A stretch of 18,686 nucleotides of DNA from Candidatus Poribacteria bacterium. Lineage in GTDB: Bacteria; Poribacteria; DTPJ01; WJIO01. Positions 247-16,445 of the stretch are shown in pieces. Positions within the stretch are counted from its first letter, which is position 1, and every line of letters starts with the position of its first letter. The stretch is from the NCBI GenBank assembly GCA_014730235.1, contig WJIO01000227.1, positions 1 through 18,686 of the forward strand, given 5' to 3'. The notes beneath the pieces are model-generated. The model was not told where the DNA came from, searched no databases, and worked only from the letters and a program-made list of their open reading frames with translations. The position numbers were made by a program, and so were the translations under genes.

Positions 247-1590
247 TTATGTGTTATCCAATTCGGAAACAACATATCGCCATTTGCCTGAAGCCGTCTG
301 GGGAATTTCGGCCACCTGATGGATTTTCACCTGGCTGTGTTCGCATCGGCGGGAGACAATGGATTTAATCTTATTTATGTCTTCATCTTTAAGATTTCCG
401 TTATTGGATGCTATAAGTATTTCAATGTTGTTTAACTGTTTTTGTCTTATCTGGAACTGCTTTACTGCCGGAAATTCCCAGAATATATGAGAGAAAAATT
501 CGCTGTGTATTTTCATTCCACTGGGTGTTATCACAAAGTCACCTGAGCGTCCTTCCACATGTTCCAGCATAGGTAACCCTCGACCGCATGGACAGTATTC
601 AGACGAAATGCTGGCCCTGTCGCCCACTTTGTATCTTATGAATGGAAAGGCGTAGTTGTCCAGACTTGTAAGCAAGACATTTCCTGTTTCCCCCGTTGGC
701 AGCAAGTTGTTATCATCATCTACAATCTCCACCAAGCATGTCAGGGCGTTTATGTGAAGTCCTGTATGTTGTGAACATTCAAAGGCCAGGATGCCGCCGT
801 CCCTTGCCCCATATTCATTGTATACTTCGCATCCAAAGGCCTGCTGTATGGTTTTGCGGTAATGGGGGAAAAGGGTTTCAGCCGTTGTAAAGACTGCTTC
901 TATATGTAAATCTGTTATATTATTATCAATAAGATATTTAGCCAGAACGTATATAGAGCTGGCGTAACCCCTTAAAAAATGGGCTTTTGACTTTCGTATC
1001 TGCTTTACATATTTCCTTAAATGCTCTTCTGTAATGTCAAAGGAAGAAAGGGTTACAAGTCGTTGAAGTTTATGGTATAACCATGTTTTTAGATTACCGA
1101 GGCCTGGATACAATGACGCCCCGCCCAGGTAGATCATTTTATCACCCAGTTTGTATCCCGCGTCTTGCCACTGTAGCATTACGCTGGCGATGGTAGAACT
1201 ATGGGTAGCCCTGGATATGTAAAATTGCAGGGCTCTGCTGGTTGTTCCGCCGGTGCTGCCCCACCGGGGTTGAGTGGCTTCCCAATCTTCGCTTTTGAAT
1301 TGTTCCCGGTTGTTCTGCACTGTTTCTTTGTCAATAACAGGCAGTTTTTGCAGATCTGCAACTGTGATATTTTCCCATGGTTTAAAATCACATTCGTCAA
1401 ACACATTTCGGTAAAACGGCACATTCTGATAGCATTGGCAAAGCAACTTTGCCAATGACTGACGCTGGAGTTCCTGTATTTCTTCCGGGCTTTGCCACTG
1501 GGCCTTATTTAGATATTTAAAAGTTTTTAAGGCATCTGTGCGTCGGGCCAAGTCTATTATGGGATATATCAGGTGACTATACATGTTCAT
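247..1590 (-). CDS. Phenylacetate-CoA ligase (PaaK/CapK)-like adenylate-forming enzyme
   Basis: This 447-residue protein belongs to the PaaK/CapK branch of the ANL (acyl-adenylate-forming) superfamily. It carries the phosphate-binding loop GSTGGTT (residues 111-117), the NEYGARD motif (about 258-264), a CxCGRG cysteine motif in the C-terminal half and a C-terminal SGK lysine region expected to take part in adenylation. Length is normal for the family. Characterised relatives activate phenylacetate with ATP and CoA. The CapK-type members found in capsule and exopolysaccharide loci have no firmly known substrate and may activate an acyl group for glycan decoration; that role is inferred here. 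The open frame extends four codons further to a TTG at 1602. I prefer ATG 1588-1590 because GGAG at 1597-1600 sits six nt before it and overlaps that TTG. The start overlaps the end of the upstream glycosyltransferase gene by 14 nt, which suggests translational coupling. Confidence 0.85.
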   Translation of the reverse strand: MNMYSHLIYPIIDLARRTDALKTFKYLNKAQWQSPEEIQELQRQSLAKLLCQCYQNVPFYRNVFDECDFKPWENITVADLQKLPVIDKETVQNNREQFKSEDWEATQPRWGSTGGTTSRALQFYISRATHSSTIASVMLQWQDAGYKLGDKMIYLGGASLYPGLGNLKTWLYHKLQRLVTLSSFDITEEHLRKYVKQIRKSKAHFLRGYASSIYVLAKYLIDNNITDLHIEAVFTTAETLFPHYRKTIQQAFGCEVYNEYGARDGGILAFECSQHTGLHINALTCLVEIVDDDNNLLPTGETGNVLLTSLDNYAFPFIRYKVGDRASISSEYCPCGRGLPMLEHVEGRSGDFVITPSGMKIHSEFFSHIFWEFPAVKQFQIRQKQLNNIEILIASNNGNLKDEDINKIKSIVSRRCEHSQVKIHQVAEIPQTASGKWRYVVSELDNT

Positions 1591-2731
1591 AAGCGTCTCC
1601 AATTCCCGGGCCGGGTTCTGACATGGATTTAAGGAGTTTGTGAAGCATCATACCCACCTGTTCTGGGGTATTACGCTTCAGAGCCACTTCTCTTGCCTTG
1701 TTACCCATTCGCAGGCATAGCTCAGGATCATCGAATAAAGCTGTTATATGCTCAACCATACCATCTACATCTTCTTCATTCACCAAAAGACCTGTGCTGC
1801 CATTGTCTACCATTTCGGGGATCGCGCCGATTCTGGTTGCTATTATGGGAAGTCCGGCCATCATAGCCTCGGCCACAGCTACCGGGTAGTTATCTCCCCG
1901 GGTGGGAAATACAAGCGCATGGGCGGATTTAAGGGCATTTATTAACTGGTCATACTCCAATTGACCGGCGAATTCGTAATTTTCATCCCCTACCATATCT
2001 ATAAACATGGCTTTTATCTTTTCCATTTCCCCTGGATGCTCTTCCACACCGGCTATGGTGAGGTGATAATTTACCCCTGATTCTTCCAATTTGGCACATA
2101 TTTGAGCCATCAGATCGGTTCCCTTGCGGTAACCTACCGCACCCACTGTAAGCAGCTTAAAGCAGCTCTCAGGGCTTCTGATTGTTCTTTTAATATCTCT
2201 GAAAGCCCAGGGAAGTTCCATTTTTACCGCGTTAGGTATTATCTCCACTTTTTGGGGATTAACGCTGTGGTCTGTAAGCCAATTTCCCCATCCTTTTGAC
2301 GTTGCTATCCAGGCCTGGGGTAGGCGCAGTATCCAGCGAACTATTGCCTTTTTGGTTTTGCTGTATTGATCATACTGCTCGATGATTAACCCGCTTTGAT
2401 GGTTTGCCACAAGCTGTGCCCCTGTCATCTGGGCAATAATTCCCAGTATGCCGAATTTAAAAACCGCTGGCCCGGCTGTTAGAAATATGTGGACGTAATG
2501 AGGTCTCCACGTTAAACATATCCAGAACATTTGCCATATATGCTTAAACATACGCAGAAAGTTATATAAGCTGATTTTTGCCGGGGTTGTATTTGAATCT
2601 CTTATGCCTGCTTCCATCAGTCTAAGCTCATACTGGGATTTTGGCAGAGATTGGAAAAATGATTTCAGTATGTTACCTTCCCCTGATGATGGAGGTGGGA
2701 GATGTCCGAAAAATAGTATGCGTTTTTTCAT
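1577..2731 (-). CDS. Glycosyltransferase family 4 (GT-B fold)
   Basis: This 384-residue protein is a GT4-type retaining glycosyltransferase. The N-terminal Rossmann half starts with KKRILFFGHLPPPSSGEGN (2-20), the usual glycine-containing acceptor-side loop. The C-terminal donor-binding half begins around FKLLTVGAVGYRKGTD (191-206) and contains FPTRGDNYPVAVAEAM (275-290). In the classical E-x7-E donor motif the first Glu is replaced by Asp (D280) and the second is E288; LPIIATRIGAIPEMVDNG follows as expected. It would add one sugar from a nucleotide donor to the lipid-linked repeat unit on the cytoplasmic side of the membrane. The ATG is preceded by a modest purine stretch (AAGAGAG, about 8 nt upstream). 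It follows the previous GT4 gene by 29 nt and overlaps the next gene. Donor and acceptor cannot be read from sequence. Confidence 0.9.
   Translation of the reverse strand: MKKRILFFGHLPPPSSGEGNILKSFFQSLPKSQYELRLMEAGIRDSNTTPAKISLYNFLRMFKHIWQMFWICLTWRPHYVHIFLTAGPAVFKFGILGIIAQMTGAQLVANHQSGLIIEQYDQYSKTKKAIVRWILRLPQAWIATSKGWGNWLTDHSVNPQKVEIIPNAVKMELPWAFRDIKRTIRSPESCFKLLTVGAVGYRKGTDLMAQICAKLEESGVNYHLTIAGVEEHPGEMEKIKAMFIDMVGDENYEFAGQLEYDQLINALKSAHALVFPTRGDNYPVAVAEAMMAGLPIIATRIGAIPEMVDNGSTGLLVNEEDVDGMVEHITALFDDPELCLRMGNKAREVALKRNTPEQVGMMLHKLLKSMSEPGPGIGDAYEHV
1597..1600 (-). promoter_or_regulatory. Ribosome binding site deciding the PaaK-like start
   Basis: GGAG on the minus strand lies six nt before ATG 1588-1590. 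The alternative TTG at 1600-1602 overlaps this site and has no comparable site of its own, so the ATG is the better start. Confidence 0.6.
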
Positions 2732-2760: not shown

Positions 2761-3891
2761 TTAATTTAACAGCTTTCTATATACGTTAACTGTCATATCT
2801 GCAACGTTTTCTGGTGAATATTTATTTCTGGCCTCTAACTGAGCTTTCTTGCTTATATCTGACCATAAATCCGTATTAGATAATAACTCCCTTATATGCT
2901 TTGCTAAGCCTGTTATATCCCCCGGTTGGTATAGAATTCCTGTGCGCATGTTTTCAATCATGTAGGGTATACCTCCTACATTGGTAGCGATTACAGGTGT
3001 TCCAAGTACCATCGCTTCGGCTATAACCATAGGTGAATTTTCCTGGGTTGATGGTAGAATCAGAGCCTTTGCGTGTTGTATATATGATTTCAGTTTTTCC
3101 TGGGTAATATGTCCTGTAAAATGTATATCCTTTAGGTTTAATTCTTTTGTCTGTTTTTTTAGCTTGTTTATATATGCTCTATCTCCTGATCCACAAAATA
3201 TAAATTGTAAGTCGCTTTCTTTTCTCTGTAGTATTTCGGCAGACAGCAGTATATCTTCCGGTCTTTTAAGGGGTGTTAATGCGCCGGCGTAAACTACGTA
3301 TTTTCCAGGTGTTGGCGGATTGTCAGGCTCAGGTTGAAAAAATATGTCTGAAACCGGATTTGGTATGTTAAACACCCTTTTTCCTTCGGGCATAAAGTTA
3401 GCAACGTATGGTGAAATAGCAATTATATTCCTGAAGCGGGAAAATATATATTTCTGGGCTTCTGCATCCAGAAAAACCCCCGGTTTTCCCTTCAACCTTC
3501 CCCATACCCGGGCTTCGGCCTGCTTTACACCGTGAACTGTGAAGACGCTTTTGATTTTGCTTAAAAGGGTAGCCGTTGCTAAGATGGTGTTGTCCTGACA
3601 GTGTATAAGATCGGGTTTTATATGGTGAAGATTTTTTAAGACATTTAATAGAAAAAATGTGAACCTTGGACGTAATAATCTCTTGACTGTCAGATAATGA
3701 AAATTGATGCCGTTATGCTTACAATTTATATCTCTGTCCGCTTTTCGGGAAAGGGTTATTACATGGAAGTTAAATTCCCCGGTATAGGCCATAAGACTCG
3801 ATACCAGGCCGACTGAGGCCGTACCAACCCCGCCTACAAAGTCTTTATTATTAAGGGGATAATTTGTTAATATGGCAATTCGGGGTTTCAT
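2761..3891 (-). CDS. Glycosyltransferase family 4 (GT-B fold)
   Basis: This is a second GT4 enzyme, 376 residues. The N-terminus has the glycine-rich loop GGVGTASVGLV (20-30) after the first beta strand. The donor half begins at KYVVYAGALTPLKRPEDIL (197-215). The classical E-x7-E motif is intact (E274 and E282) within STQENSPMVIAEAM, followed by GTPVIATNVGGIPYMIEN. Length and architecture are typical of WcaC/RfaG-like polysaccharide glycosyltransferases. It should transfer a sugar to the growing oligosaccharide in the cytoplasm. The start lies 8 nt after the stop of the asparagine-synthetase-like gene. I see no good Shine-Dalgarno sequence before it, so it may rely on translation of the upstream gene. 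Sugar specificity is unknown. Confidence 0.9.
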   Translation of the reverse strand: MKPRIAILTNYPLNNKDFVGGVGTASVGLVSSLMAYTGEFNFHVITLSRKADRDINCKHNGINFHYLTVKRLLRPRFTFFLLNVLKNLHHIKPDLIHCQDNTILATATLLSKIKSVFTVHGVKQAEARVWGRLKGKPGVFLDAEAQKYIFSRFRNIIAISPYVANFMPEGKRVFNIPNPVSDIFFQPEPDNPPTPGKYVVYAGALTPLKRPEDILLSAEILQRKESDLQFIFCGSGDRAYINKLKKQTKELNLKDIHFTGHITQEKLKSYIQHAKALILPSTQENSPMVIAEAMVLGTPVIATNVGGIPYMIENMRTGILYQPGDITGLAKHIRELLSNTDLWSDISKKAQLEARNKYSPENVADMTVNVYRKLLN

Positions 3892-3899
3892 TTTATTTA

Positions 3900-5831
3900 C
3901 TAGTCTATATGGTTAATTGCTTTTATTTCCACCATTGGTTTATTATTTATAACTTCCTCGATATACAGTTTCAAGGATGCGGCTTTGGAGAAATCCAGCC
4001 GTTGTTCTTTCCATTTTTCCGTATTAAGATCATATTCCATTGTGGAAGTTAATAACCTATCATAAGCCGGGGAGCTGCTTTCTTTTTCTTTAAATAGCTT
4101 ATTTCTGTAAAGTTTGCCTGTCCATTCTTCCGTCAGGAATTCCCGATATCCTGTTTTTTTGCGCTTGTATCTTGATCTCAGGTGCTTTGGTCCTACCAGC
4201 ATTAATGAAAGAGGTGATATGACATCTGCCGGTGAGTAGCCATGATCTGTCGGGAATTTTAAAAGTTCGGGTTTGTATTTCTTGATTATGTATGCGTAAA
4301 AATACTGAGATTGATAGCGATTTTTAATTGTCGGGTTAAGGGTTCGGGAATATACTCCGGCAAAGGGTGCACTGAACAGGAATTCCACGAATTCGTCATC
4401 CAGAAATGGAAAGCGGTTTGTGCCGTAAAGCCTTTCCATGTGTACCTCTGCGCCGAAGTATTTACGCAGAGCTTCTGTCAACAGGAACATATAGAATCTT
4501 CGATCCGGTGACATGGCTCCAAAGCGATCTATTATGGTATCTTCCACATCTGCCACTAATTCAGGTGTGGCATTGCGTAGGGTGTCAGGGGAAAAATACA
4601 GGGTGGTTTCAGGATCAACGATTATTCGAGCCAGCTCTTCCTTCATATCCGGGGCTGAATTCATCCGGGCGAATCCAGGACTGACCATGTTGCCTACGTT
4701 CTGGAATGTCCTCAACAGTTCGCTGCCGAATATACCGGTAAGGAAAACGCTGGAAAAATCGCTCATATGCTGGAAAGCATAGGGATAGTTGGCTCTTTCC
4801 AGGGTTGACAGGCAGTCGGACAGCATCAGGGCCTGCATGGCATAATTGTCAAACATCCTTTCGTATGTTCCATTAAGCACTATAGGGCAGTAGTGAAACC
4901 CAAGTTTCTGAGACATTCGCTGGGGTATGGTGACGTTCATGCTGGTGGATATGCCAAAAGAGTAACAGAGATATTCGTCCTGCTTTTTATCCAGTACTGA
5001 AAGGATAGCCCGACTGTCAAAACCGGATGTAAAGGATACGCATGCTTTCGATGGTGCAAGCTGGTTTACTGTTTTATAGAAAATCTCTGAACCTTTCTCT
5101 AAAGCTTCTTTGGATGAATACATGGTTGATTCATAAAGCGATCTTACATCCCAGTATATGTAACTTTTAGCATTTTCTTCGTCTATGCGTATATATTCCG
5201 CAGGTTTTAGCATTTTTACCTTTTTAAAATAGGTGCGTCTGCCAATGGGATAATTAAATATAGCCAGTTCGGCTATACCTGCAGCATCAAGTTCCGGTTC
5301 TGTTGAAAGATGATTTGCTACTGCCGACATGCTGGTGGAAAATATAAATCGGGAGTTTTCCACAGCGTAATAGAGGGGGGAAATGCCGAAGCGACTGTTG
5401 TATACTCTACATTCGTTACGAAATCGGCATAAGTTATCCACATCTTCAATTAACATGACCAGACAAAAATTACCCTTTATTTTATTGACAAAATCATCAC
5501 CATCAGAACCATACAGCTTCGTTATTTCTTCAGCAGTCAACTTTTTAGCTGGGATGCTGGCGTCGTTTCTGGCAAATACTTCGCCGATGATAAACAGATG
5601 TTTGCCGTCATCTGCAAAATAGTTATTCCCCGCTGATGACTTTTCCAGGTATGTAGCCTGAAAAGACCAACCCCTCGCGTTATATTGACGGAAACGGGCA
5701 TCTCCCTTTGAATCGTTGATATTATTTTTATATATATGGCTTTCAAAGGCATTTTCCGGTAGGGGTGGCAGTTCCTGCTGTACTGAAAGGTCTACTATGC
5801 CCAGGATATCTATTATTTTGTCTGTGTCCAT
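3900..5831 (-). CDS. Asparagine-synthetase-like protein lacking the glutaminase cysteine
   Basis: The protein has 643 residues. Its C-terminal half has the features of the class B asparagine synthetase fold: a PP-loop ATP-binding motif SFTSGFDSR (266-274), the second loop LTGIFGSELL (374-383, where true synthetases have GxGGDE) and the RFPFLDDEFVEFLFS segment (493-507). The N-terminal about 230 residues resemble a class II glutamine amidotransferase domain (NCRVYNSRFGISPLYYA-like segment near 140-156). However, residue 2 is Asp rather than the Cys that acts as nucleophile in AsnB, so glutamine hydrolysis is not expected. It may use free ammonia or another amine, or form a different amide or adenylate. 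Such proteins occur in exopolysaccharide loci, including exosortase-associated ones, but their reaction is poorly known. GAGGG seven nt before ATG 5829-5831 supports the start. It follows the GH4 gene by 22 nt. Confidence 0.8.
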   Translation of the reverse strand: MDTDKIIDILGIVDLSVQQELPPLPENAFESHIYKNNINDSKGDARFRQYNARGWSFQATYLEKSSAGNNYFADDGKHLFIIGEVFARNDASIPAKKLTAEEITKLYGSDGDDFVNKIKGNFCLVMLIEDVDNLCRFRNECRVYNSRFGISPLYYAVENSRFIFSTSMSAVANHLSTEPELDAAGIAELAIFNYPIGRRTYFKKVKMLKPAEYIRIDEENAKSYIYWDVRSLYESTMYSSKEALEKGSEIFYKTVNQLAPSKACVSFTSGFDSRAILSVLDKKQDEYLCYSFGISTSMNVTIPQRMSQKLGFHYCPIVLNGTYERMFDNYAMQALMLSDCLSTLERANYPYAFQHMSDFSSVFLTGIFGSELLRTFQNVGNMVSPGFARMNSAPDMKEELARIIVDPETTLYFSPDTLRNATPELVADVEDTIIDRFGAMSPDRRFYMFLLTEALRKYFGAEVHMERLYGTNRFPFLDDEFVEFLFSAPFAGVYSRTLNPTIKNRYQSQYFYAYIIKKYKPELLKFPTDHGYSPADVISPLSLMLVGPKHLRSRYKRKKTGYREFLTEEWTGKLYRNKLFKEKESSSPAYDRLLTSTMEYDLNTEKWKEQRLDFSKAASLKLYIEEVINNKPMVEIKAINHID

Positions 5832-5853
5832 TATGTTTCCCTCGTTCTCTTGA

Positions 5854-7095
5854 TTAATTAAAATATTTGCTCAATAATTTTTCTGCATGTTTTAGCGACA
5901 ATACGTTTGGATGTAAAAACATTGCCTCAACTGCTTTCTCATAGGATTTTTCTATGATTGCCTGTATAAACATTTTTTCGCTGGCTTTTACTAGATCCAG
6001 CATTTCCAGCGCAAATTTTGGATAGTTTTCCGGTACTGGATCTGCTTTAATATTTTCTCTGTTAATTTTTACCGTTGTTTCGGCTGTTAGATACGGATTT
6101 TCTTTTTGTCTGGTTGTTGCTATAAATTTTTTCCCTTCTGAGTCAAGAGATTTGAGGAAAGGAACAATAATATCCTGATAATAGGTTACGCTGGGTTTCC
6201 GGGTAACTGTATGTTCCAGGTTTCCCTTTCTATATTCTTCCAGAATTTTTGCCCGTTGTTTTTTCAGACGGACTGTATGGATTTGATGTGTCAGGTACTT
6301 AAATTTTACATCTTCTACACTTCCCCGGATACCTTTTCCCCTTATGTATACTGATTCTCCTTTACGATACAAGCAGTAGGCCTGGTGTGTTGGTATTGTC
6401 CCAAATTCACCTGCGTATTGGTAATTAAACTCTTTAATTTTGTGCTTTTTGATTATGTTTACAGCTTTTTGCATCTGGCTTTTTCCGTTTATTTTAACAT
6501 CGCTTATCCAGCCCAGATGGTTTATTCCAAAATAATCAATACAGGTTTCTTCGGGTGATGATTGAAGCAGTTGGGCGAATTTTTCATTCAGGGAAAGCGT
6601 GTGATGACATATACCTATAAAGTTAATAGATGAATTCATTGCTATGGCTTCACATATTATGCTTACAGGATTGGTGAAGTTAATAAATATAGCCGATGAT
6701 TTTTTTTCTTCCATTGTTTTTACCGCATCCAGAATTGGCGGTAGATTGTGTATGGCTTCCACATATCCGGCGGCATGGCCTGTTATTCCGCTCAGGGCAA
6801 GGTTTTTGCGGTCTGTAACCTGACCCTGGGTTCCACCAGCGCGGAGCTGATTCAGTATGTAATGTGTTCCGGTAAGTGCTTCATCCAGTTTTGTTGTCCA
6901 GGATACTTCTGCTGAAAGCTTCAGCTTTTTAGATAACGAATGACAGTAGTTTCCCACTGTTTCGAGCTTTTGTTTATTTCTGCCTACAAGGTATATTTGA
7001 CCAAGTTTCAGGTTATGTTCTGCCATAGCCGTAAAAAACCAGGGTGTATTAAGACTGCTTCCTCCAATTATTACTAGCTTTTTTCCCTCAGGCAT
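5854..7095 (-). CDS. Glycoside hydrolase family 4 (NAD-dependent) enzyme
   Basis: This 413-residue protein matches GH4, the family of NAD- and metal-dependent 6-phospho-glucosidases, alpha-glucosidases, galactosidases and galacturonidases, which work by oxidation at C3 and elimination. Visible features: the N-terminal nucleotide-binding strand and loop KLVIIGGSSLNTPW (6-19), NQLRAGG (82-88), NFTNPVSI (139-146), and the expected metal ligands Cys163 in GICHH and His193 in GINHLGW. The region that usually reads ETxGxGG is ITGHAAGY here (104-111), so it is a divergent member. Length is close to the family norm. The start overlaps the ATP-grasp gene by 8 nt. GH4 enzymes normally sit in sugar-uptake operons, so its place inside a polysaccharide assembly locus is unusual. 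It could edit or recycle glycan intermediates, or use the redox chemistry to modify a sugar. No phosphotransferase or ABC sugar importer gene is nearby in the window. Confidence 0.85.
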   Translation of the reverse strand: MPEGKKLVIIGGSSLNTPWFFTAMAEHNLKLGQIYLVGRNKQKLETVGNYCHSLSKKLKLSAEVSWTTKLDEALTGTHYILNQLRAGGTQGQVTDRKNLALSGITGHAAGYVEAIHNLPPILDAVKTMEEKKSSAIFINFTNPVSIICEAIAMNSSINFIGICHHTLSLNEKFAQLLQSSPEETCIDYFGINHLGWISDVKINGKSQMQKAVNIIKKHKIKEFNYQYAGEFGTIPTHQAYCLYRKGESVYIRGKGIRGSVEDVKFKYLTHQIHTVRLKKQRAKILEEYRKGNLEHTVTRKPSVTYYQDIIVPFLKSLDSEGKKFIATTRQKENPYLTAETTVKINRENIKADPVPENYPKFALEMLDLVKASEKMFIQAIIEKSYEKAVEAMFLHPNVLSLKHAEKLLSKYFN

Positions 7096-8356
7096 TCTTG
7101 CCAGCCCTTCTTTGCTTTAACAGGTAAAGGGGCATGCGGAGATATTTCATGCCATAATCATTGGCTGAAAGGAAAGGCCTTATGTCATCAGTTGCAAAGG
7201 TGGCAAAGGCCTTGGAATCTATCCATGAGAGAACCCACGACCAGGGCATTAATTCGCCTTTGCGGAAATAATCCCAGAAGGCCTGGAAATCGGCTGTGGC
7301 GTTAAACCACTTTATTCCCTCGGTGAAATCTGTTTGCAAGTGCACCTTCTGGCCTGTCAGGTGTAGATATTGCACCAGGGGGAAATTCATTCCGCATCGG
7401 GTGGCCTGGTAATTCTGCTGCCACAATCTTGGGTTTAGCTCTATCATTTTGAGTTTGTCGTCTCTCTCATCTTTTTTGAATTCAATTGAACCTATTCCCC
7501 GGTATTGAATTCCCTTAAAGAACTGCATACCCAGTTGGGCCAGTTCTTCATATTTCAGGCTTTCTACTAACGTCCCTATTCCAAAATCCGTCCTGTATTG
7601 GCGTATTTTCCTGAGAGTAAATATCAGTAGAGGATTATTATCCTCCCCCATATAAGCGCAGACCTTGAAATGATTGGTGTTGGGGCCAAGGATTATGGAT
7701 TGAACCATTGCCTTTAAACCTGTGGGTATTATCTCCCTGTATCTTTCGCATAATTGTTGAGCATCATCCACCTTAAAACCCTTGTTGTCGAACTTTTCCC
7801 TCCATAGGTGGGAATAATATGGTTTTATAAAGGCTGGGTATATTACCTGATCCTTTATTTGTTCAACTTCCTCCATTGTTTCAGGGTAGAGGGTTTGGGG
7901 ATATGGAGTTCCTATCCTCTGGGCCATTTCATACTGAAGCTTTTTGTTTACTATGGCCTCCACAACCTGACTGGACGAGAGGGCAAAATGGAAACACTTG
8001 CTTAACTCACTACGATTGCGAGACATAAACAGCACAAAGGCATCTGTTGATGGAAATAAAACGCCTTTCTCCTGCTGTTTTTTCCCCTCTTTTAAAAGAA
8101 ACGCCAGTAGCTTTTGAGGTTCATGCACCGGATCAGGGCATAACTTTGCCTTGCAGTATCGGGATTTAAAACCAGGCATACCCGGGTTTGATTCCAGTCC
8201 GATTACGTTTATACCAGCTTTTCCAAGACTGCGGACAGCACCCAGGCCAGTTTCAAAAAGGCCTAGCACAAAAGCAGTGTTTGTTTTTTGGTATCGGTTT
8301 GTTCTTCCGTTCTTTGGTCTAACCATTCTGTCAGGGATGACATGGTTGTTATCCAT
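7088..8356 (-). CDS. ATP-grasp superfamily ligase (COG3919-like)
   Basis: The 422-residue protein has ATP-grasp architecture. A pre-ATP-grasp Rossmann-like domain starts at AFVLGLFETGLGAVRSLGKAG (about 28-48). The central nucleotide-binding part has NKKLQYEMAQRIGTPYPQT (about 132-150) and the lysine strand AFIKPYYSHLW. The catalytic metal-binding strands GIGSIEFKKD and MIELNPRLWQQ carry the acidic and Asn residues typical of the fold. ATP-grasp enzymes activate a carboxylate as acyl phosphate and join it to an amine or thiol. Here the natural proposal is amide formation on an amino sugar or sugar acid, but the substrate is unknown. The start overlaps the upstream deacetylase gene by 94 nt. 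AAGGAG at 8369-8374, 12 nt before the ATG, supports this start over the next in-frame ATG at 8326, which has no ribosome site. The long overlap implies coupled expression with the deacetylase. Confidence 0.85.
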   Translation of the reverse strand: MDNNHVIPDRMVRPKNGRTNRYQKTNTAFVLGLFETGLGAVRSLGKAGINVIGLESNPGMPGFKSRYCKAKLCPDPVHEPQKLLAFLLKEGKKQQEKGVLFPSTDAFVLFMSRNRSELSKCFHFALSSSQVVEAIVNKKLQYEMAQRIGTPYPQTLYPETMEEVEQIKDQVIYPAFIKPYYSHLWREKFDNKGFKVDDAQQLCERYREIIPTGLKAMVQSIILGPNTNHFKVCAYMGEDNNPLLIFTLRKIRQYRTDFGIGTLVESLKYEELAQLGMQFFKGIQYRGIGSIEFKKDERDDKLKMIELNPRLWQQNYQATRCGMNFPLVQYLHLTGQKVHLQTDFTEGIKWFNATADFQAFWDYFRKGELMPWSWVLSWIDSKAFATFATDDIRPFLSANDYGMKYLRMPLYLLKQRRAGKNA

Positions 8357-9348
8357 GCCTGATCGCTGCTCCTTATTATGTAGATATATTCCAACAGGGG
8401 TTCAAGTATGTTTTTTATATTCTCCGGATTCATGGATGGATGAAACCAGAAATGACATATAGTTCCAGTATTTAAGGCTGTTTTAACATATTTTTTCAGT
8501 ATATTGAGCCAGTATTCATTACTCCAATTTAGAGGAGGTTTTTCCAGACATATACCACCGGGTATTTGCCATATTCCAAGTTTATCGCGCCGGGGATAAT
8601 CAAGCTCGTAACCGGTATTTAGCCTGTATGACTTAATGCCTGCGTTTTTTAATTCCTGTATGTTTCCGACTATATTTCCGGGGAATACGAAGGAACGGAG
8701 TTTTATATTTTGAGATTCTGCGGCTTTTTTGCAGGCCTCCAATTCGCTTTCTGCCACTTCCGAAGGGCAAACTTTTTCGGACATGTTTATATGGGAAAAG
8801 GTGTGACATGCGATCTCATGTTTGACCGGAGAATCTGTGATTTGTCTTATTAGATCTGGTGCGTACCATTCAGGCGCGGATTTATGATCTGATGTGGGAT
8901 CTGAGTCGAACCAGTCGTCGGATTTATATTGCCAAAATTCGTTTGTGAAGTATGGGAGTCTTAGGATTTCCGGATGTATTAATCCATTTTTTTTCCGGCA
9001 TTTATCCAGAAAAAGATGACCTATAGTTGCCCAGGTTACGGGTATTTCGTATTTATGGAACATATGCATAATCTCCGGGAAATTTTCCCGAGTTTGCTGG
9101 GCCTGGTTTTTGGCGTGGGATATGGGATCTGCTTGTCCCTTTGCATGATTCCATCCCCATGCTAGTTCAAGATCGGCTGATATTATTATACATGACCTGA
9201 ATAAGAAAGGGTAAATACTACCCGGCTTTTTTTGATGATAAAAATCGGGATTTACCCTGGGTTTCAACCCCAGAGAATACTTGGTACGGCTTATGAGGGA
9301 TTGACCGCCGGTTCCTAATAGATTATATATTTTTTTATTAATTTTCAT
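8263..9348 (-). CDS. Polysaccharide deacetylase (NodB homology, CE4-like)
   Basis: This 361-residue protein shows the NodB fold motifs in order. SADLELAWGW (57-66) is a variant of motif 1, where D59 and E61 stand for the usual Asp pair. EIPVTWATIGHLF (101-113) matches the strand ending in FFVVG-like residues. CHTFSHI (181-187) is the H-x3-H metal motif with H182 and H186. RSFVFPGN (208-215) is motif 3, and ICHFWFHP (297-304) carries the late catalytic-type His. CE4 enzymes remove N- or O-acetyl groups from glycans using a divalent metal. I see no clear signal peptide, so it may act in the cytoplasm or on a membrane-bound intermediate. An in-frame stop lies two codons upstream of ATG 9346-9348, so the N-terminus cannot extend further. 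Related deacetylases occur in exosortase-associated exopolysaccharide loci. Its last 94 nt overlap the ATP-grasp gene. Confidence 0.88.
   Translation of the reverse strand: MKINKKIYNLLGTGGQSLISRTKYSLGLKPRVNPDFYHQKKPGSIYPFLFRSCIIISADLELAWGWNHAKGQADPISHAKNQAQQTRENFPEIMHMFHKYEIPVTWATIGHLFLDKCRKKNGLIHPEILRLPYFTNEFWQYKSDDWFDSDPTSDHKSAPEWYAPDLIRQITDSPVKHEIACHTFSHINMSEKVCPSEVAESELEACKKAAESQNIKLRSFVFPGNIVGNIQELKNAGIKSYRLNTGYELDYPRRDKLGIWQIPGGICLEKPPLNWSNEYWLNILKKYVKTALNTGTICHFWFHPSMNPENIKNILEPLLEYIYIIRSSDQAWITTMSSLTEWLDQRTEEQTDTKKQTLLLC
8369..8374 (-). promoter_or_regulatory. Ribosome binding site inside the deacetylase gene
   Basis: AAGGAG on the minus strand lies 12 nt before ATG 8354-8356 of the ATP-grasp gene and inside the coding region of the polysaccharide deacetylase. 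The spacing is rather long. It is the best support for the 94-nt gene overlap being real. Confidence 0.45.
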
Positions 9349-9419: not shown

Positions 9420-10661
9420 TTAATCCTTTATGAAAGGGGGAATAGAGTTTTGACTTTTGGAAAAGTTAAATTGAGATTCTTCATGCTGTCTTGTTAGCTG
9501 GTTGTATATATCAATAGTCATTTCGGATATTTTATCCCATGAAAACTGGTTTTGATTTTTTTGTTTAATATAACCGGACATTTTTTGTATTTTCCGGGGT
9601 TCTGATAGAAGGCTTATAATGGCATTTGCCAGGGCAAATGGTTGTTCTGGTGGAACCAACAGGCCTGTTTTGCCGTTATCAATAAATTCCGGGAGACCAC
9701 CTACACATGTTGCTATTACAGGTTTCTGGAACGCGTAGGCTGTCATCATTACACCGCTCTGGGTTGCGTCGGTGTAGGGCATGGCTGCGACGCTGGCCCT
9801 CTGGAATAACTGACATAAAAGGGAATTTGGTATATATTCCAGATATGTTTCAAATTTGCCACCGTTTTGTAGTGAGGGAAATTCAGGCACTTTGTAATCC
9901 TGAATTGGGTTACCTGCTATTATGAATTTTACACTTGGTACTTTACGTGCCACTACAGGAGCAGCTTTCAACAATGTCTCCAGGCCTTTGTATGGTGAAA
10001 TGCGACCAAAAAACAATATTGTATTATTTTCCGCATGCAAATCATGGGTTTTCCATCGGTTGAATATATCCATTATTCCCAGGGGGATTACAGATGATTT
10101 TTTGTCCTTTATGTCAACAGGGAAGACATTTTTACAGTAATCGCTGTGAAATATTATGTGTTGTGAATGACGAGTAAAGAACTCTTTGATCTGCTGTGAC
10201 CTGCCTTTTCCCTCGCCGGAATGGGCTTCAGCATCGTGTATGCTTAGAATTTTTGCGCTTTTTCGTGATAATAACGGAATAATAAGGCTTTTACTGCTGG
10301 CATCGTCGAAATGTATTACGTCAGGATTTATCTTTCGTATCCTTGATGCGAGTTTCAGGGCTACCCTTATATTAGAAAGGCTGTGCCAACGAGGATGGTT
10401 GTATACTGCCAGATGAAAGCCTGCCAGCTTTGTAAAATAATCGTGTATAACTTCCGGGGAGTATTCCTGTATTTCATCTATGCTTAATGTTATGACTCCG
10501 GCTTCAAGGTATTCGGGCGGCTGGAATACGGAACTATTCCATCCCTGAGGTGAAAGCTCAAGGATGACATGGAGTTCCAGCAATTCTTTTTTCGCCAGTT
10601 CCCTTATCAAGGGTAATGCTGTGTCTATGAAGCATGGTCGTGTATAGTAAATTACTCGCAT
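9420..10661 (-). CDS. Glycosyltransferase family 4 without the classical E-x7-E motif
   Basis: From ATG 10659-10661 the protein has 413 residues and begins MRVIYYTRPCFIDTALPLIREL, a normal GT-B N-terminus. The donor half starts at NTILFFGRISPYKGLETLLKA, the GRISPYKG turn being typical of GT4. The segment that normally carries E-x7-E reads MPYTDATQSGVMMTAYAF, with no Glu at either position, followed by KPVIATCVGGLPEFIDNGKTG. This TQSGV variant is seen in a subgroup of GT4 enzymes. The frame stays open upstream, past a TTG at 10880, without any ATG. I chose the ATG because family similarity begins there, although only a weak GGA precedes it. The gene follows a roughly 520-nt gap, so it may start its own transcription unit. 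The preceding deduced 73 residues are rich in His and Lys and look unlike a GT domain. Confidence 0.85.
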   Translation of the reverse strand: MRVIYYTRPCFIDTALPLIRELAKKELLELHVILELSPQGWNSSVFQPPEYLEAGVITLSIDEIQEYSPEVIHDYFTKLAGFHLAVYNHPRWHSLSNIRVALKLASRIRKINPDVIHFDDASSKSLIIPLLSRKSAKILSIHDAEAHSGEGKGRSQQIKEFFTRHSQHIIFHSDYCKNVFPVDIKDKKSSVIPLGIMDIFNRWKTHDLHAENNTILFFGRISPYKGLETLLKAAPVVARKVPSVKFIIAGNPIQDYKVPEFPSLQNGGKFETYLEYIPNSLLCQLFQRASVAAMPYTDATQSGVMMTAYAFQKPVIATCVGGLPEFIDNGKTGLLVPPEQPFALANAIISLLSEPRKIQKMSGYIKQKNQNQFSWDKISEMTIDIYNQLTRQHEESQFNFSKSQNSIPPFIKD

Positions 10662-10892
10662 TTTTTGTAATCCATTAATTTTTATTGCTTGTGATGGTTT
10701 GAAAGATACCCCTTGCCTTTTTGAGGGTGTAAGTTTTAGACCTATGTTGGTTTTTATATTATGCAGGATAGATGCCAAGAGTCGGTGCTTTTTTATGATC
10801 CTGTAAATGCTTGAAAAATGATGGGTGTTCTGTTGTTGATGGTGTTTGATGGGATGGTTTATTTGTGAAGCAAAACGCAACCGAGGGATAAG

Positions 10893-10898: not shown

Positions 10899-10918
10899 AA
10901 TGGCACACGAATTTGAAG

Positions 10919-10958
10919 GCTTTTCACGGATCGAATATATATTCGATCCGTGAAAAGC
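10919..10958. repeat. Perfect 40-bp palindrome
   Basis: The left arm is GCTTTTCACGGATCGAATAT and the right arm is its exact reverse complement, with no spacer, so all 20 base pairs match. As RNA it would form a long stem with a tiny AT-rich loop. Neither flank has a T run, which argues against a simple intrinsic terminator. It lies just upstream of a TATAAT on the minus strand, so it could be an operator, a processing or termination structure, or a remnant of a small mobile element. Confidence 0.85.
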
Positions 10959-11050
10959 GTTGGTGATATGGGATTAGGTTTTTTGATAATATGATATATG
11001 TTTTATGCTTATGATAATATTAATAGGTGTTTAGCGTTTCCAATTCTCCA

Positions 11051-11180: not shown

Positions 11181-12311
11181 TTATACATGGGTCAGGCTTG
11201 CTGTTATTATGTAATTTGTGACGGCATGGATAACCTGATCCGCTTCTTCGTTTGTCATTTCAGAATACAGGGGCAGAGTCAGGATCTCTTTCCAAAGACG
11301 GTCTGTTACATTTAATTCACCCCGGGTATACTGGCGGAAGAATGGCTGTGTGTGATTGGCTATGTAATGAACACCTGAGCCGACTTCCTTTTCCTTGAGA
11401 AAATCCATCATGTCGTCGCGCATTCCGGGAACACGTATTATGTATGTAAAAGGTGCGGTTTCGCTGTAATCTATATCCAAGGTATAAATTCCATCTGTGG
11501 ACTGGAAGGCCGTATCATATCTTCGGCATATTTCCCTGCGTCTTGTTATAAATTTGTCTACCTTTTTCATCTGTTCCAGGCCGATGGCTGCGTTTATATT
11601 ACTCATGTGGTATCGGAAGCCGTGAGATACTACCTCGTAGAACCAACCCCGTTCGTTACGGTATCTGCGCCATGTTTCCTTGTCAATTCCCAGTATGCGC
11701 TTTTGCCTTATCTTTTCGGCTACTTCGTCATCATCCAGGGCTACTGCGCCGCCTTCGCCGCAGGTTATTATTTTAATAGGGTCAAAGCTAAAGCATGTGG
11801 CATGACCAAAGCTGCCTATTTTGCGTCCTTTGTATTTAGAACCGAAGGCATGGGCGGCATCCTCGATAATCACGAGGTTATGCTCTTCGGCCAGGGCCAT
11901 GAGGGAATCCATATCACATGGTTTTCCGCAGTAATGGACGGGCATTATGGCCTTTGTCTTTGATGTTATCCGTCGCTTTATGTCTTTGATGTCAACAAGC
12001 AAATCCTTTTCGTTTACATCGCAGAAAACCGGTGTTGCTCCTGTGGATATTATAGCCTGTATGGATGCGGCGTAGGTCAGGGATGGCACTATAACCTCAT
12101 GGCCATGACCGATCCCGTAGCCATCTAAGGCTATGTGGAGGGCTGATGTGCCGGTGTTTACAGCTATAATGTTCTTTGCGCCGATGTATTCCTCTAGGGC
12201 TGCCTCGAAGTCTTTTGTAACAGAACCCATACCGAGCCATCCGGTTTCCATTACCGCTTCAATGGCTGATAATTCTTCTTTTCCTGTTGATGGTTTTGAT
12301 GTTGGTATCAT
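11181..12311 (-). CDS. DegT/DnrJ/EryC1/StrS-family sugar aminotransferase
   Basis: This 376-residue, PLP-dependent aminotransferase has all the usual family landmarks. NTGTSALHIAL (52-62) binds the cofactor phosphate, PSLTYAAS (76-83) is the N-terminal turn, and IIEDAAHAFGS (148-158) carries the Asp that contacts the pyridine ring. FSFDPIKIITCGEGG (174-188) carries the cofactor lysine K180. GFRYHMSNINAAIGLEQ (231-247) is the conserved substrate-side segment. The family transfers an amino group from glutamate or glutamine to a keto-sugar nucleotide, making amino sugars such as 4-amino-4,6-dideoxy or 3-amino sugars. That would supply the amine that other enzymes in the locus could acylate. GGAGG five nt before ATG 12309-12311 gives a firm start. 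The partner dehydratase or oxidase is not in the window, so the exact sugar stays open. Confidence 0.92.
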   Translation of the reverse strand: MIPTSKPSTGKEELSAIEAVMETGWLGMGSVTKDFEAALEEYIGAKNIIAVNTGTSALHIALDGYGIGHGHEVIVPSLTYAASIQAIISTGATPVFCDVNEKDLLVDIKDIKRRITSKTKAIMPVHYCGKPCDMDSLMALAEEHNLVIIEDAAHAFGSKYKGRKIGSFGHATCFSFDPIKIITCGEGGAVALDDDEVAEKIRQKRILGIDKETWRRYRNERGWFYEVVSHGFRYHMSNINAAIGLEQMKKVDKFITRRREICRRYDTAFQSTDGIYTLDIDYSETAPFTYIIRVPGMRDDMMDFLKEKEVGSGVHYIANHTQPFFRQYTRGELNVTDRLWKEILTLPLYSEMTNEEADQVIHAVTNYIITASLTHV

Positions 12312-12327: not shown

Positions 12328-12383
12328 AGTGATCGGTGTTTAGGAAACTGAAATAAGTTTACGGATCACTGATTACTGATCAA
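12328..12383. repeat. Degenerate 7-nt-period repeat at flippase/aminotransferase junction
   Basis: On the plus strand 12363-12390 reads as heptamers GGATCAC, TGATTAC, TGATCAA, TAATAAC. A short inverted counterpart, AGTGATC, lies at 12328-12334, opposite GATCACT at 12364-12370. The block includes the flippase stop codon and encodes its final Ile-Ser-Asn-Gln. Fourteen nt (12364-12377) are identical to the block at 13836-13849. Confidence 0.55.
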
Positions 12384-13823
12384 TAATAACTTTTTGGGTG
12401 CCAGGGTTTTTAGCTTTTGTATATCCTCTGGCGATAGTGTTTTCAGAATTTTGTTGACCAATATGTATAATGGCGGCGCTATGGCGAAGCTTGCCACCAG
12501 GAAATTTATATGCTGCGATAAAAAATATGTTGCTATACCCATAACCAGGCTTGCTGTGGATATTTTTGCAACCCAGACCAGGGGATATGATATTTTCAGT
12601 TTTCGGAACAGGTAAAAGGCGTAGACGAAGAAGCTTATTGCATTTCCGGCTACTACTGCCCAACATGCTCCGTTTGTTCCCCATACAGGTATTGCTAAAT
12701 AACCTGCAATTCCCACACCTATCAGGGCAGAGCCGAAGAATATGGCGCTTAATGTCTGATGTCCCATTGCTACCATTGCTGGTCCCATGATATATCCCAC
12801 GCTGTTGAGGAGGCTTAAAGACAGGATTCGCAGGGCGCTACCGGCTGTATCGAATTGTTGGCCGTAAATCAACCTTATTACATAAGGTGCTATCACCCAT
12901 AGGCCTACACCCATGGGAACGGTAATGGCGAACATGTATTTATAGGCCCTGAGAAACATGCTTCTGAATCGCTCAATGGAGGTGGCATAGACGCTGGAAA
13001 AAGCCGGGAAGATGGCGTGGAAAAGCATTTCCGGCACTATGAAAATCATGGTGTAAATTCTATGGGCTGCGGCGAAGTTTCCTACTATCGCGTCGTCGCT
13101 TGTTAGATGGCGCAGCAGGAGTATTATGAGATTTGCGTATATGACCGAGATCATCATCAGAGCGGCGAAGGGGATGGATTTTACCAATAATTTTGGTGCT
13201 GATATTATCTTTTCCGATACCTGATTAACCTTCCTGGTTATTCTGCCTGTGAGGTATGCGTTGATGATAACCGGCAGCAGGGATGCGGACATAAGAACCA
13301 CCAGTATTATGGGGAAAGATAAACCCATCTTAACGGCAATTACGCCGCCTACTAAGGCTATGACAGCCCTGAGAGAACGGGTTAAGGAATCGTATCCCAT
13401 GGCCTGATAGGCATGGAGCATTGATATGAATATTGAACCGAAGGAACTTACCAGGTACGAGGCCATGACAACGCTGGCGATCAACAATCTTTGTCTTTCC
13501 CAATCGCTGTTGAATCCGTATATTATGAATATACCTACAGCTATAACCGCAAGGAATATTTTTAAGGTTAATATCTTTTTAAGATAGCTTTTTCCTGCGG
13601 ATGGTTTTTGGGCTACATCCCTTATAAGCAGTTGATCAAAGCCGAAGTTGACCAGAAGAACGATAATGGCAGCCAGGGACTGGGCATGGGCGTAGACTCC
13701 GTAGATTTCTGGGCCTATATAACGGGCCAGAACTGCTGTCCATAATATGCCTGAAGCCAGTACGGTAAAGCGTCCTATGGAAAGGAATATTGTGTTTTTT
13801 AAGATTTTTGTTCCAGTATTCAT
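12366..13823 (-). CDS. Wzx-like oligosaccharide flippase (MOP superfamily)
   Basis: From ATG 13821-13823 this is a 485-residue, very hydrophobic protein with about 12 to 14 membrane segments. Its N-terminus ILKNTIFLSIGRFTVLASG leads to VLARYIGPEIYGVYAHAQSL, the typical first two helices of polysaccharide flippases (RfbX/Wzx, MVF-like). The FDQLLIRDVAQ turn is also characteristic. Wzx proteins move undecaprenyl-diphosphate-linked repeat units from the cytoplasmic to the outer face of the inner membrane. The frame could begin six codons earlier at GTG 13839-13841, which overlaps the upstream stop as GTGA. Neither start has a clear ribosome site, so translation probably depends on the upstream gene. 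It sits directly after the polymerase/ligase gene, the classical Wzx/Wzy pairing. The last residues Ser-Asn-Gln are encoded by a heptamer-type repeat and probably carry no function. Confidence 0.9.
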   Translation of the reverse strand: MNTGTKILKNTIFLSIGRFTVLASGILWTAVLARYIGPEIYGVYAHAQSLAAIIVLLVNFGFDQLLIRDVAQKPSAGKSYLKKILTLKIFLAVIAVGIFIIYGFNSDWERQRLLIASVVMASYLVSSFGSIFISMLHAYQAMGYDSLTRSLRAVIALVGGVIAVKMGLSFPIILVVLMSASLLPVIINAYLTGRITRKVNQVSEKIISAPKLLVKSIPFAALMMISVIYANLIILLLRHLTSDDAIVGNFAAAHRIYTMIFIVPEMLFHAIFPAFSSVYATSIERFRSMFLRAYKYMFAITVPMGVGLWVIAPYVIRLIYGQQFDTAGSALRILSLSLLNSVGYIMGPAMVAMGHQTLSAIFFGSALIGVGIAGYLAIPVWGTNGACWAVVAGNAISFFVYAFYLFRKLKISYPLVWVAKISTASLVMGIATYFLSQHINFLVASFAIAPPLYILVNKILKTLSPEDIQKLKTLAPKKLLLISNQ

Positions 13824-13828
13824 TTGGT

Positions 13829-13856
13829 TACCAGTGATCACTGATTACTATTTACT
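13829..13856. repeat. Degenerate 7-nt-period repeat at polymerase/flippase junction
   Basis: On the plus strand the block reads TTACCAG, TGATCAC, TGATTAC, TATTTAC as heptamers. It covers the stop codon of the polymerase-like gene, encodes its last codons (Val-Asn-Ser-Asn-Gln) and includes the possible GTG start of the flippase. It shares 14 identical nt with the block at 12364-12377 in the same orientation. Confidence 0.55.
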
Positions 13857-15392: not shown

Positions 15393-16445
15393 TTATGCCC
15401 TTTTTAATTTATTCATGTGATTGTCGGATGGCAATACGGCGTGGGAGACTTTTCTGGCCAGGGCATCTACTAATCTTCGGTAACGTACTCGATGGAAGGG
15501 AACCAGATTTTTGGTGAAGCTCATTTTGAATCTGGCCAGAGTTGGCATTTTTTCCCTTTCCACACCTACCAGATCGTACCATCGGCATCCGGACTCTTTT
15601 GCCCACTGGATTATATGCCATTGTATAAGCTCTCCCTGTCCCATGTTGCGTATGCCGGAACCTGTTGCTCCGTGCCAGTGGTAGCATATTTGTTTGTATT
15701 TTAAGAATATACCTCCGGAGAGGTATTTACCCATGTATTTTGACAGGTATATCCTGGCCATATCTTTATGGGCAAATGCTTCCATTATTCGGCGATAGTA
15801 TTCCTTGATTTGAAATTTAACCCCGGTTTGTTCTGTCATCTGCTGCATTATGCTGTAATAAGCATCCAGTTTTTCCAAACCGCCAAACTCCACTGTAACC
15901 TGATTTTTCTGGGCTTTTCGGATCATGTTTCGCTTTTTACTGTTTATGGATTTAGTCCATATATCCTCCAGACTCATGGACATGTCTACATAGGCTGTTT
16001 CAAATGCTTTGCGATCCCATGTATTTCCGTTGCTTTGTGGGCAGACTTCCTCTGTCCAGCTTGTGTTTTCGGGTGAATTAAATAGACTGACGGCTATTCC
16101 TAGCTTAGTTTTTCCGGCGGCAGAGACTAATTTCCGGCATATATTTGCCTGTCTTTGATTGTCGCCTTCAGCTACCGGGCCTCCGTAGGATACTTCGTAG
16201 ATACGGGGTGGGCAGTAGCAGATGTGGTGACAATGGCATTGAGTTACCAGATGACATGGCATTACGCCTATGATATTATCATTTTCTTTTGCTACCAGAT
16301 AAAAGAAGTCAGTATTAAAAACTTCTGTTACGACTTTGTTCCAATCAGACGTGTGAAATATGCTTGATCCCGGGTTATTCTCCAGAAACATATCAATATT
16401 CTTTGTTTCTGAAGCAACCCTTAAATCAACTTTTTCGATTTTCAT
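15393..16445 (-). CDS. FemAB-like GNAT-fold protein
   Basis: This 350-residue protein looks like the FemAB/FemX group with a GNAT (Acetyltransf_6) domain. The N-terminal part contains SSIFHTSDWNKVVTEVF (27-43) and YLVAKENDNIIGVMP (49-63). The C-terminal GNAT half has KSINSKKRNMIRKAQKN (165-181), GGIFLKYKQICYHWHGAT, NMGQGELIQWHIIQWA and the closing strand GCRWYDLVGVE, all usual in this family. Fem proteins transfer amino acids from charged tRNA to lipid-linked peptidoglycan precursors. Relatives in exopolysaccharide and exosortase-associated loci may attach amino-acyl or acyl groups to glycans, but no substrate is known. GAGG eight nt before ATG 16443-16445 supports the start. It overlaps the stop of the GT2 gene by 4 nt (ATGA), so the pair is translationally coupled. 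It most likely modifies the lipid-linked sugar unit. Confidence 0.82.
   Translation of the reverse strand: MKIEKVDLRVASETKNIDMFLENNPGSSIFHTSDWNKVVTEVFNTDFFYLVAKENDNIIGVMPCHLVTQCHCHHICYCPPRIYEVSYGGPVAEGDNQRQANICRKLVSAAGKTKLGIAVSLFNSPENTSWTEEVCPQSNGNTWDRKAFETAYVDMSMSLEDIWTKSINSKKRNMIRKAQKNQVTVEFGGLEKLDAYYSIMQQMTEQTGVKFQIKEYYRRIMEAFAHKDMARIYLSKYMGKYLSGGIFLKYKQICYHWHGATGSGIRNMGQGELIQWHIIQWAKESGCRWYDLVGVEREKMPTLARFKMSFTKNLVPFHRVRYRRLVDALARKVSHAVLPSDNHMNKLKRA

Follow-up and report, generated by a model that had tools for sequence, protein, structure and literature searches.

A conserved cassette of a sugar deacetylase, an ATP-grasp ligase and a cysteine-less AsnB-like protein in bacterial surface-polysaccharide clusters, and its GH4-containing form in a Poribacteria contig

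What could a sugar deacetylase, an ATP-grasp ligase, a GH4-family enzyme and an asparagine synthetase-like protein do together in a locus for surface glycan synthesis? Genes for these four follow each other at positions 3900–9348 of an 18,686 nt stretch of DNA from Candidatus Poribacteria (WJIO01000227.1), here called the window, which corresponds to the whole of one contig (G000:C155) among the 451 that make up a 5.5 Mb draft genome. The deacetylase, the ATP-grasp and the AsnB-like gene constitute a conserved yet undescribed cassette in surface-polysaccharide clusters of distant bacteria, its probable product being an amino sugar that bears an unusual amide-linked group. Our tentative reading, to which we give somewhat less than an even chance, is that the block is a window-specific form of the cassette that N-acylates or amidates an amino sugar during the Wzx/Wzy-type assembly of a surface glycan.

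The main window genes are all on the minus strand and together form a Wzx/Wzy-type surface glycan locus. The four open reading frames (ORFs) encode a CE4-like amino-sugar deacetylase (8263..9348; PF01522 and invariant motif residues), an ATP-grasp carboxylate-amine ligase-like protein (7088..8356; predicted fold and invariant ligands, related to PRK12767 and CPSase_L_D2), a GH4-family nicotinamide adenine dinucleotide (NAD) enzyme without the acidic DT/ET-x-G loop (5854..7095; PF02056, PF11975 and alignments) and an AsnB-like protein without the N-terminal glutaminase Cys (3900..5831; GATase_7, TIGR01536 below its cut-off, and family alignment A4). Deacetylase and ATP-grasp genes overlap by 94 nt, ATP-grasp and GH4 genes by 8 nt, and 22 nt separate the GH4 from the AsnB-like gene; these ORFs, distances and family assignments agree with a preliminary description of the region. 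The 94 nt overlap presupposes that ATP-grasp translation begins at ATG 8356; 12 nt upstream of this codon lies a good ribosome-binding sequence (AAGGAG). The sole later start codon ahead of the conserved fold, ATG 8326, gives an overlap of 64 nt; residues 1–20 have a predicted local distance difference test (pLDDT) value below 50 in the model, and homologues start at about residue 21–28.

We compared the window with other genomes by scanning 84,980 species genomes with the ATP-grasp alignment and by a separate search with an AsnB-like profile that is blind to neighbouring genes. The counts are lower bounds, as sampling was limited to the 80 best loci and to 294 genomes from one class. Fourteen loci outside the window with an AsnB-like gene were compared, two obtained via the ATP-grasp scan and twelve via the profile. 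The first two, L029 (Melioribacter) and L027, are Ignavibacteria loci with the AsnB-like gene close by, and through the profile came 10 more genomes of the class to which L029 belongs, plus a nearly complete one from another lineage (G523). The same ATP-grasp family stands beside the AsnB-like gene in 10 of the 14 loci, and in the remaining four (L122, L126, L127, L128) the contig ends in or at the AsnB-like gene. The deacetylase family of the window occurs in seven loci (L029, L118, L123, L124, L125, L127, L132). L123 and L124 have the window order, GT4–glycosyltransferase (GT)–deacetylase–ATP-grasp–D-2-hydroxyacid dehydrogenase–AsnB-like–GT, in which the first GT is extra relative to the window and deacetylase and ATP-grasp genes overlap by 11 and 14 nt. 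L029 reads ATP-grasp–D-2-hydroxyacid dehydrogenase–AsnB-like–GT4; its AsnB-like protein has 39% identity and its deacetylase, encoded 2.3 kb further downstream, 42%. ATP-grasp–short-chain dehydrogenase/reductase (SDR)–AsnB-like was found in L027, SDR–ATP-grasp–AsnB-like in L118–L121 and deacetylase–GNAT-like–ATP-grasp–AsnB-like in L125, whereas L132, in a genome from outside the window's phylum, holds deacetylase, AsnB-like and ATP-grasp genes within one cluster.

Since these genes also stand side by side in other phyla, chance is excluded for deacetylase, ATP-grasp and AsnB-like protein. That all four came together by accident, as unconnected decorating genes of a variable polysaccharide locus, is thus extremely unlikely: polysaccharide loci swap genes freely and the GH4 gene has no conserved partner, but three of the four families recur in at least three unrelated lineages, with the same order in L123 and L124. 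The chance reading is contradicted for these three and survives for GH4 alone. The check proposed in the preliminary description, whether the four families are neighbours in other genomes, thus gave a largely positive result: three of them were recovered together in other phyla, whereas GH4 was found in this place in the window only. Among 84 genomes searched in the window's own phylum, the window was the only carrier of the AsnB-like gene, and the same-order genome G001 has only the deacetylase–ATP-grasp pair. A second AsnB match in the window's own genome (C136) is a Cys-bearing AsnB and was set aside.

Other genes accompany the cassette in some loci. Ahead of the SDR–ATP-grasp–AsnB-like trio lie genes for a DltB-like MBOAT protein (L118 and L119; scored for L118) and for a small unidentified protein; in L120, L121 and L128, the gene after the AsnB-like one encodes a YbaK/EbsC-type tRNA deacylase (scored for L121). 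L126 contains HisH/HisF/WbpG amidino-sugar-looking ORFs beside its AsnB-like member (3398–5913; judged by eye from N-terminal sequences).

The place taken by GH4 in the window is a slot for exchangeable NAD enzymes. In 8 of the 10 loci with ATP-grasp, an NAD enzyme is in contact with the cassette, namely an SDR in five (L027, L118–L121) and a D-2-hydroxyacid dehydrogenase in three (L029, L123, L124); L125 and L132 have none in contact. The SDR lies ahead of the ATP-grasp gene in L118–L121, and the NAD enzyme lies between ATP-grasp and AsnB-like genes in L027, L029, L123, L124 and the window. The hydroxyacid dehydrogenases of L029, L123 and L124 keep R260, E289 and H308 (L029 numbering), the Arg/Glu/His triad expected of active D-2-hydroxyacid dehydrogenases. 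In the AsnB-like tree, the window groups with L027 and L029 (support 96/94), so that a single clade of three has three unrelated NAD enzymes in this slot. GH4 as a conserved cassette member was rejected, since other NAD enzymes occupy the slot in sister loci.

The GH4 protein itself is well recognized by its domain profiles (PF02056, 73.4 bits vs a cut-off of 23.2; PF11975, 55.8 vs 24.1 bits) and keeps the NAD motif GGSS (11–14), N142 (the Asn of FTNP), C163, H193 and Y250. Alignment with solved 6-phospho-beta-glucosidase structures and with paralogues from its own genome revealed that the acid-bearing loop is deleted. This loop reads QETxG in 1s6y, 5c3m, 6wbt and 1up7 and is DTxGPGG-like in six of seven GH4 paralogues from the same genome, the exception being the divergent L007, which also differs there. 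No close relative was found in the viral contigs or genome contigs searched, nor among 145 related genomes beyond one 26%-identical protein (G134), whose region (L022) resembles a sugar-uptake/catabolism locus (ORFs judged by eye). Plasmid matches reach at most about 27% identity and are mostly annotated as 6-phospho-beta-glucosidases. A true glycosidase that edits or recycles misbuilt glycan intermediates would fit the two Pfam domains above their cut-offs, the retained C163, H193 and N142 and a Tyr that lines up with the 1up7 base region, yet the loop with the conserved acid is missing and dehydrogenases hold the same slot in sister loci, which makes this function very unlikely. Nothing specific speaks for the C3 redox chemistry or glycan editing that had been suggested for GH4, which is not conserved and has lost its acidic loop. 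The loss of the loop and the dehydrogenases in the same slot elsewhere rather point to dehydrogenase use, and we infer that the window GH4 may have been recruited for a dehydrogenase step and not as a glycan hydrolase.

The AsnB-like protein matches GATase_7 and stays far below the cut-offs of TIGR01536 (75.9 vs 267.1 bits) and TIGR03108 (54.2 vs 816.9 bits). Its N terminus, MDTDK, has no Cys at position 2, a residue present in none of the 11 AsnB-like members of the family alignment (A4); the member from L132 starts MAGII, with Ala in place of Cys. As the glutaminase Cys is missing from every member with an intact N terminus, glutamine splitting is not expected, in line with the earlier assignment of this protein as lacking glutaminase function. 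Beta-lactam and carbapenam synthetases are AsnB homologues without the glutaminase Cys that use amines. The resemblance is one of enzyme type, namely the AsnB fold family, the lost Cys and the formation there of an amide with an amine replacing ammonia, whereas the gene context of the window protein differs from theirs.

The AlphaFold2 model of the ATP-grasp protein (pLDDT 89.6) has its best PDB matches in 2pn1 (Z 28.3), PurK (Z 26), the L-amino-acid ligase 3vot (Z 25.1) and PylC (Z 25.1). As far as can be judged from the model, what these matches settle is the fold, not the substrate. K138, K178, E306, N308 and R310 are invariant across 27 ATP-grasp sequences. The protein shares fold and ligands with the PRK12767 “carbamoyl phosphate synthase-like” proteins and, by fold, with PylC and L-amino acid ligases; unlike PRK12767-type proteins, it falls under the NCBIfam cut-offs. 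Within the wider ATP-grasp family, a sugar deacetylase is present in the same gene run even when its fold is unrelated: the partner is PIG-L in 16 Bacilli loci and CE4 in three Omnitrophota loci and G001. We regard this exchange of CE4 and PIG-L as the best evidence that the ATP-grasp enzyme acts on a freed amine.

The Bacilli loci (L015, L016, L033–L046, L053, L062) have a conserved arrangement of PIG-L deacetylase, GT4, ATP-grasp and phosphotransferase genes. They resemble the window in an ATP-grasp protein of 30–34% identity and in a sugar deacetylase and a GT4 within one run, the kinase-like gene completing it, and differ in that PIG-L replaces CE4 and neither an AsnB-like nor an NAD enzyme gene adjoins. 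A Priestia plasmid copy lies near spore coat genes, and no published account of such PIG-L/ATP-grasp loci was found. The closest ATP-grasp relatives, from Methanomassiliicoccus (L025, 51%; L026, 47%), were set aside, as their neighbours look by eye like cobalamin and cobalt/nickel-transport genes, with no glycan genes.

The deacetylase of the window passes the PF01522 cut-off (29.4 vs 23.1 bits) and has no evident signal peptide. In an alignment of the window protein with those of the seven cassette loci (8 sequences), the residues of the D-x-E and H-x3-H motifs and a late His (D59, E61, H182, H186, H303) are invariant; judged by these residues, the CE4 metal and catalytic motifs of the window enzyme are intact.

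How might these enzymes work together? In the pathway that we propose, the cytoplasmic CE4-like deacetylase would expose the amine on a lipid- or nucleotide-linked sugar of N-acetylglucosamine type. To judge from the 2-hydroxyacid dehydrogenases and SDRs that hold this slot elsewhere, the NAD enzyme would ready the carboxylate to be attached, and in the window the GH4 protein would have been taken over for this dehydrogenase reaction. The ATP-grasp enzyme could then make an amide bond via an acyl phosphate and the Cys-less AsnB-like protein an amide via an acyl adenylate, accepting an amine and not glutamine-derived ammonia. The resulting sugar would carry a hydroxy-acyl or aminoacyl substituent on its nitrogen, or else be a substituted uronamide. 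Deacetylation of an amino sugar followed by re-acylation or amidation through dedicated ligases had already been put forward in the preliminary description, and this part gains support from the cassette neighbours in other phyla and from the deacetylase swap, whereas for the chemistry we infer the substrates, the order of steps and the identity of the added group.

Several observations weigh against our reading. The PP-loop of the AsnB-like protein (TSGFDSR, 268–274, in the window; TGGFDGR in relatives) departs from the SGGxDS of the synthetase domain, so its adenylating activity is unproven, and its predicted model reached a pLDDT of only 40. GH4 retains its metal and NAD ligands, which leaves room for sugar C3 chemistry, and its occurrence in the slot is known from just one contig of a metagenome-assembled genome. 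Furthermore, L119–L121 show no deacetylase nearby, and the SDR–ATP-grasp–AsnB-like trio may work without one.

The AsnB-like protein could also make a uronamide from free ammonia, with deacetylase, ATP-grasp and NAD enzyme as separate decorations within a shared operon. In L123, L124 and L132, the cassette comes after genes for a nucleotide-sugar dehydrogenase of the UDP-glucose 6-dehydrogenase type (scored for L123), so that uronic acids are likely available there, and the AsnB homologues WbpS and WbqG of polysaccharide loci yield uronamides (PMC7468200). We nevertheless consider this arrangement unlikely, because ATP-grasp is kept with the AsnB-like gene in 10 of 10 loci whose contig runs past the latter, a tight co-conservation that argues for a joint step.

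A closer precedent is the partly characterised Wbp/Vim pathway for the linking sugar in Porphyromonas gingivalis and Tannerella forsythia. Its putative CE4 deacetylase is VimE, the TIGR03019-matching VimA decides the amino acid (Ser or Gly) put on the sugar, and WbpS is an AsnB homologue producing a uronamide (PMC7468200). The window shares with it a CE4 deacetylase, a FemAB/GNAT-like protein, an AsnB homologue and a DegT aminotransferase in one glycan pathway, the logic of freeing an amine and then adding another acyl group, and a host genome with tails of the type IX secretion system (T9SS). Accordingly, the cluster might be a form of Wbp/Vim (CE4 as VimE, the FemAB-like protein as VimA, the AsnB-like protein as WbpS, DegT as WbpE) leading to an aminoacylated diamino-uronic acid, possibly a linking sugar that anchors T9SS cargo. 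Across many contigs, the genome G000 encodes at least 20 C-terminal tails for type IX secretion that exceed the PF18962 cut-off. The FemAB/GNAT-like protein (15393..16445; PF02388, 61.8 bits), a VimA-type aminoacyl transferase candidate encoded several genes upstream of the deacetylase, also matches TIGR03019, weakly (86.6 bits vs a cut-off of 260.35). L118, L122 and L125 pair a FemAB-like gene with a CE4-looking gene beside the cassette, L118 and L122 also with a Cys-bearing AsnB.

We still judge this assignment improbable. Wbp/Vim has no ATP-grasp, no cassette NAD enzyme and no Cys-less AsnB, and the window AsnB-like protein lacks the N-terminal Cys of the glutamine-dependent enzymes. No WbpA, WbpB or WbpD domains were seen in the 15 main window proteins, the rest of the genome not having been searched for them, and the DegT protein is PseC/ArnB-like. 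A better TIGR03019 protein exists elsewhere in the genome (L138, 5664–6719, G000:C209; 339 bits, above the cut-off), although no exosortase was found there. Finally, L118 has a separate Cys-bearing AsnB and CE4-like/FemAB pair next to the cassette, which is therefore something additional and not the Vim set itself. For these reasons, together with FemAB and AsnB-like scores under their family cut-offs, we did not file the window as Wbp/Vim. The exosortase A (XrtA/PEP-CTERM) exopolysaccharide locus likewise has enzymes of the same kinds side by side (deacetylase, FemAB of TIGR03019, amidotransferase of TIGR03108); in contrast to it, the window genome, which is 91.6% complete, gave no exosortase match (PF09721), and the window's FemAB and AsnB-like proteins lie far under the family cut-offs.

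The gene run does not end with the four genes, at which the preliminary description had set its limits. A GT4 glycosyltransferase (2761..3891) follows 8 nt downstream of the AsnB-like gene, after which L029 too has a counterpart (32% identity), and another GT4 (9420..10880, likely true start ATG 10661), a homologue of which also precedes the deacetylase in L123, L124, L127 and L132, lies 71 nt upstream of the deacetylase; glycosyltransferases thus flank the block on both sides. Downstream, the run continues after a gap of 29 nt with a third GT4 (1577..2731; domain profile) and, overlapping it by 26 nt, a CapK/PaaK-like AMP-forming carboxylate-activating protein (247..1602; NF045666, 159 bits vs a cut-off of 300). 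In the direction of transcription, the locus begins with transaldolase-like, sugar 3,5-epimerase-like, GT2 and FemAB-like genes, followed by a Wzy/ligase-like membrane protein (13838–15355) and a Wzx flippase (12366–13841), which indicate the Wzx/Wzy-type context, and by the DegT/PseC-like sugar aminotransferase (11181..12311; PF01041, 405 bits; PseC, 338 bits vs a cut-off of 423.5); then come the GT4 gene, the four-gene block and the genes just named. About 300 nt separate DegT from GT4, or 500 nt if the latter begins at ATG 10661. This region contains a near-perfect palindrome (10916–10961; 46 bp, 23 nt arms, 96%, no spacer) at which a transcription unit of its own may begin; no copy of the 36-base core of this palindrome was found in the other loci fetched. 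A scan of the window against Rfam gave no match, and a promoter/terminator scan gave little above the shuffled background.

We found no description of an ATP-grasp enzyme, an NAD enzyme and a Cys-less AsnB together in the open-licence literature. The earlier view that no described pathway has this combination holds for the exact set of enzymes, whereas the underlying logic is shared with Wbp/Vim (PMC7468200). It is possible, if rather doubtful, that the genes represent an undescribed sugar-amidation system in which a Cys-less AsnB-type synthetase and an ATP-grasp ligase act jointly on a deacetylated amino sugar and an exchangeable NAD dehydrogenase supplies them, a role for which the window's organism would have converted a GH4 glycosidase, the product being perhaps a new linking or capping sugar of T9SS bacteria. 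The genetic signature of deacetylase, ATP-grasp, interchangeable NAD dehydrogenase and Cys-less AsnB flags a probable amide-bearing sugar in the surface glycans of little-studied bacteria. Its gene order has two slots that are each taken by unrelated enzymes of like kind, so that the chemistry can be tested. Should the GH4 member indeed be a dehydrogenase, a family known for cleaving glycosides with the help of NAD would have a use in biosynthesis, and if the sugar serves as an anchor in T9SS genomes, the story of the Wbp/Vim linking sugar would reach beyond Porphyromonas and Tannerella.

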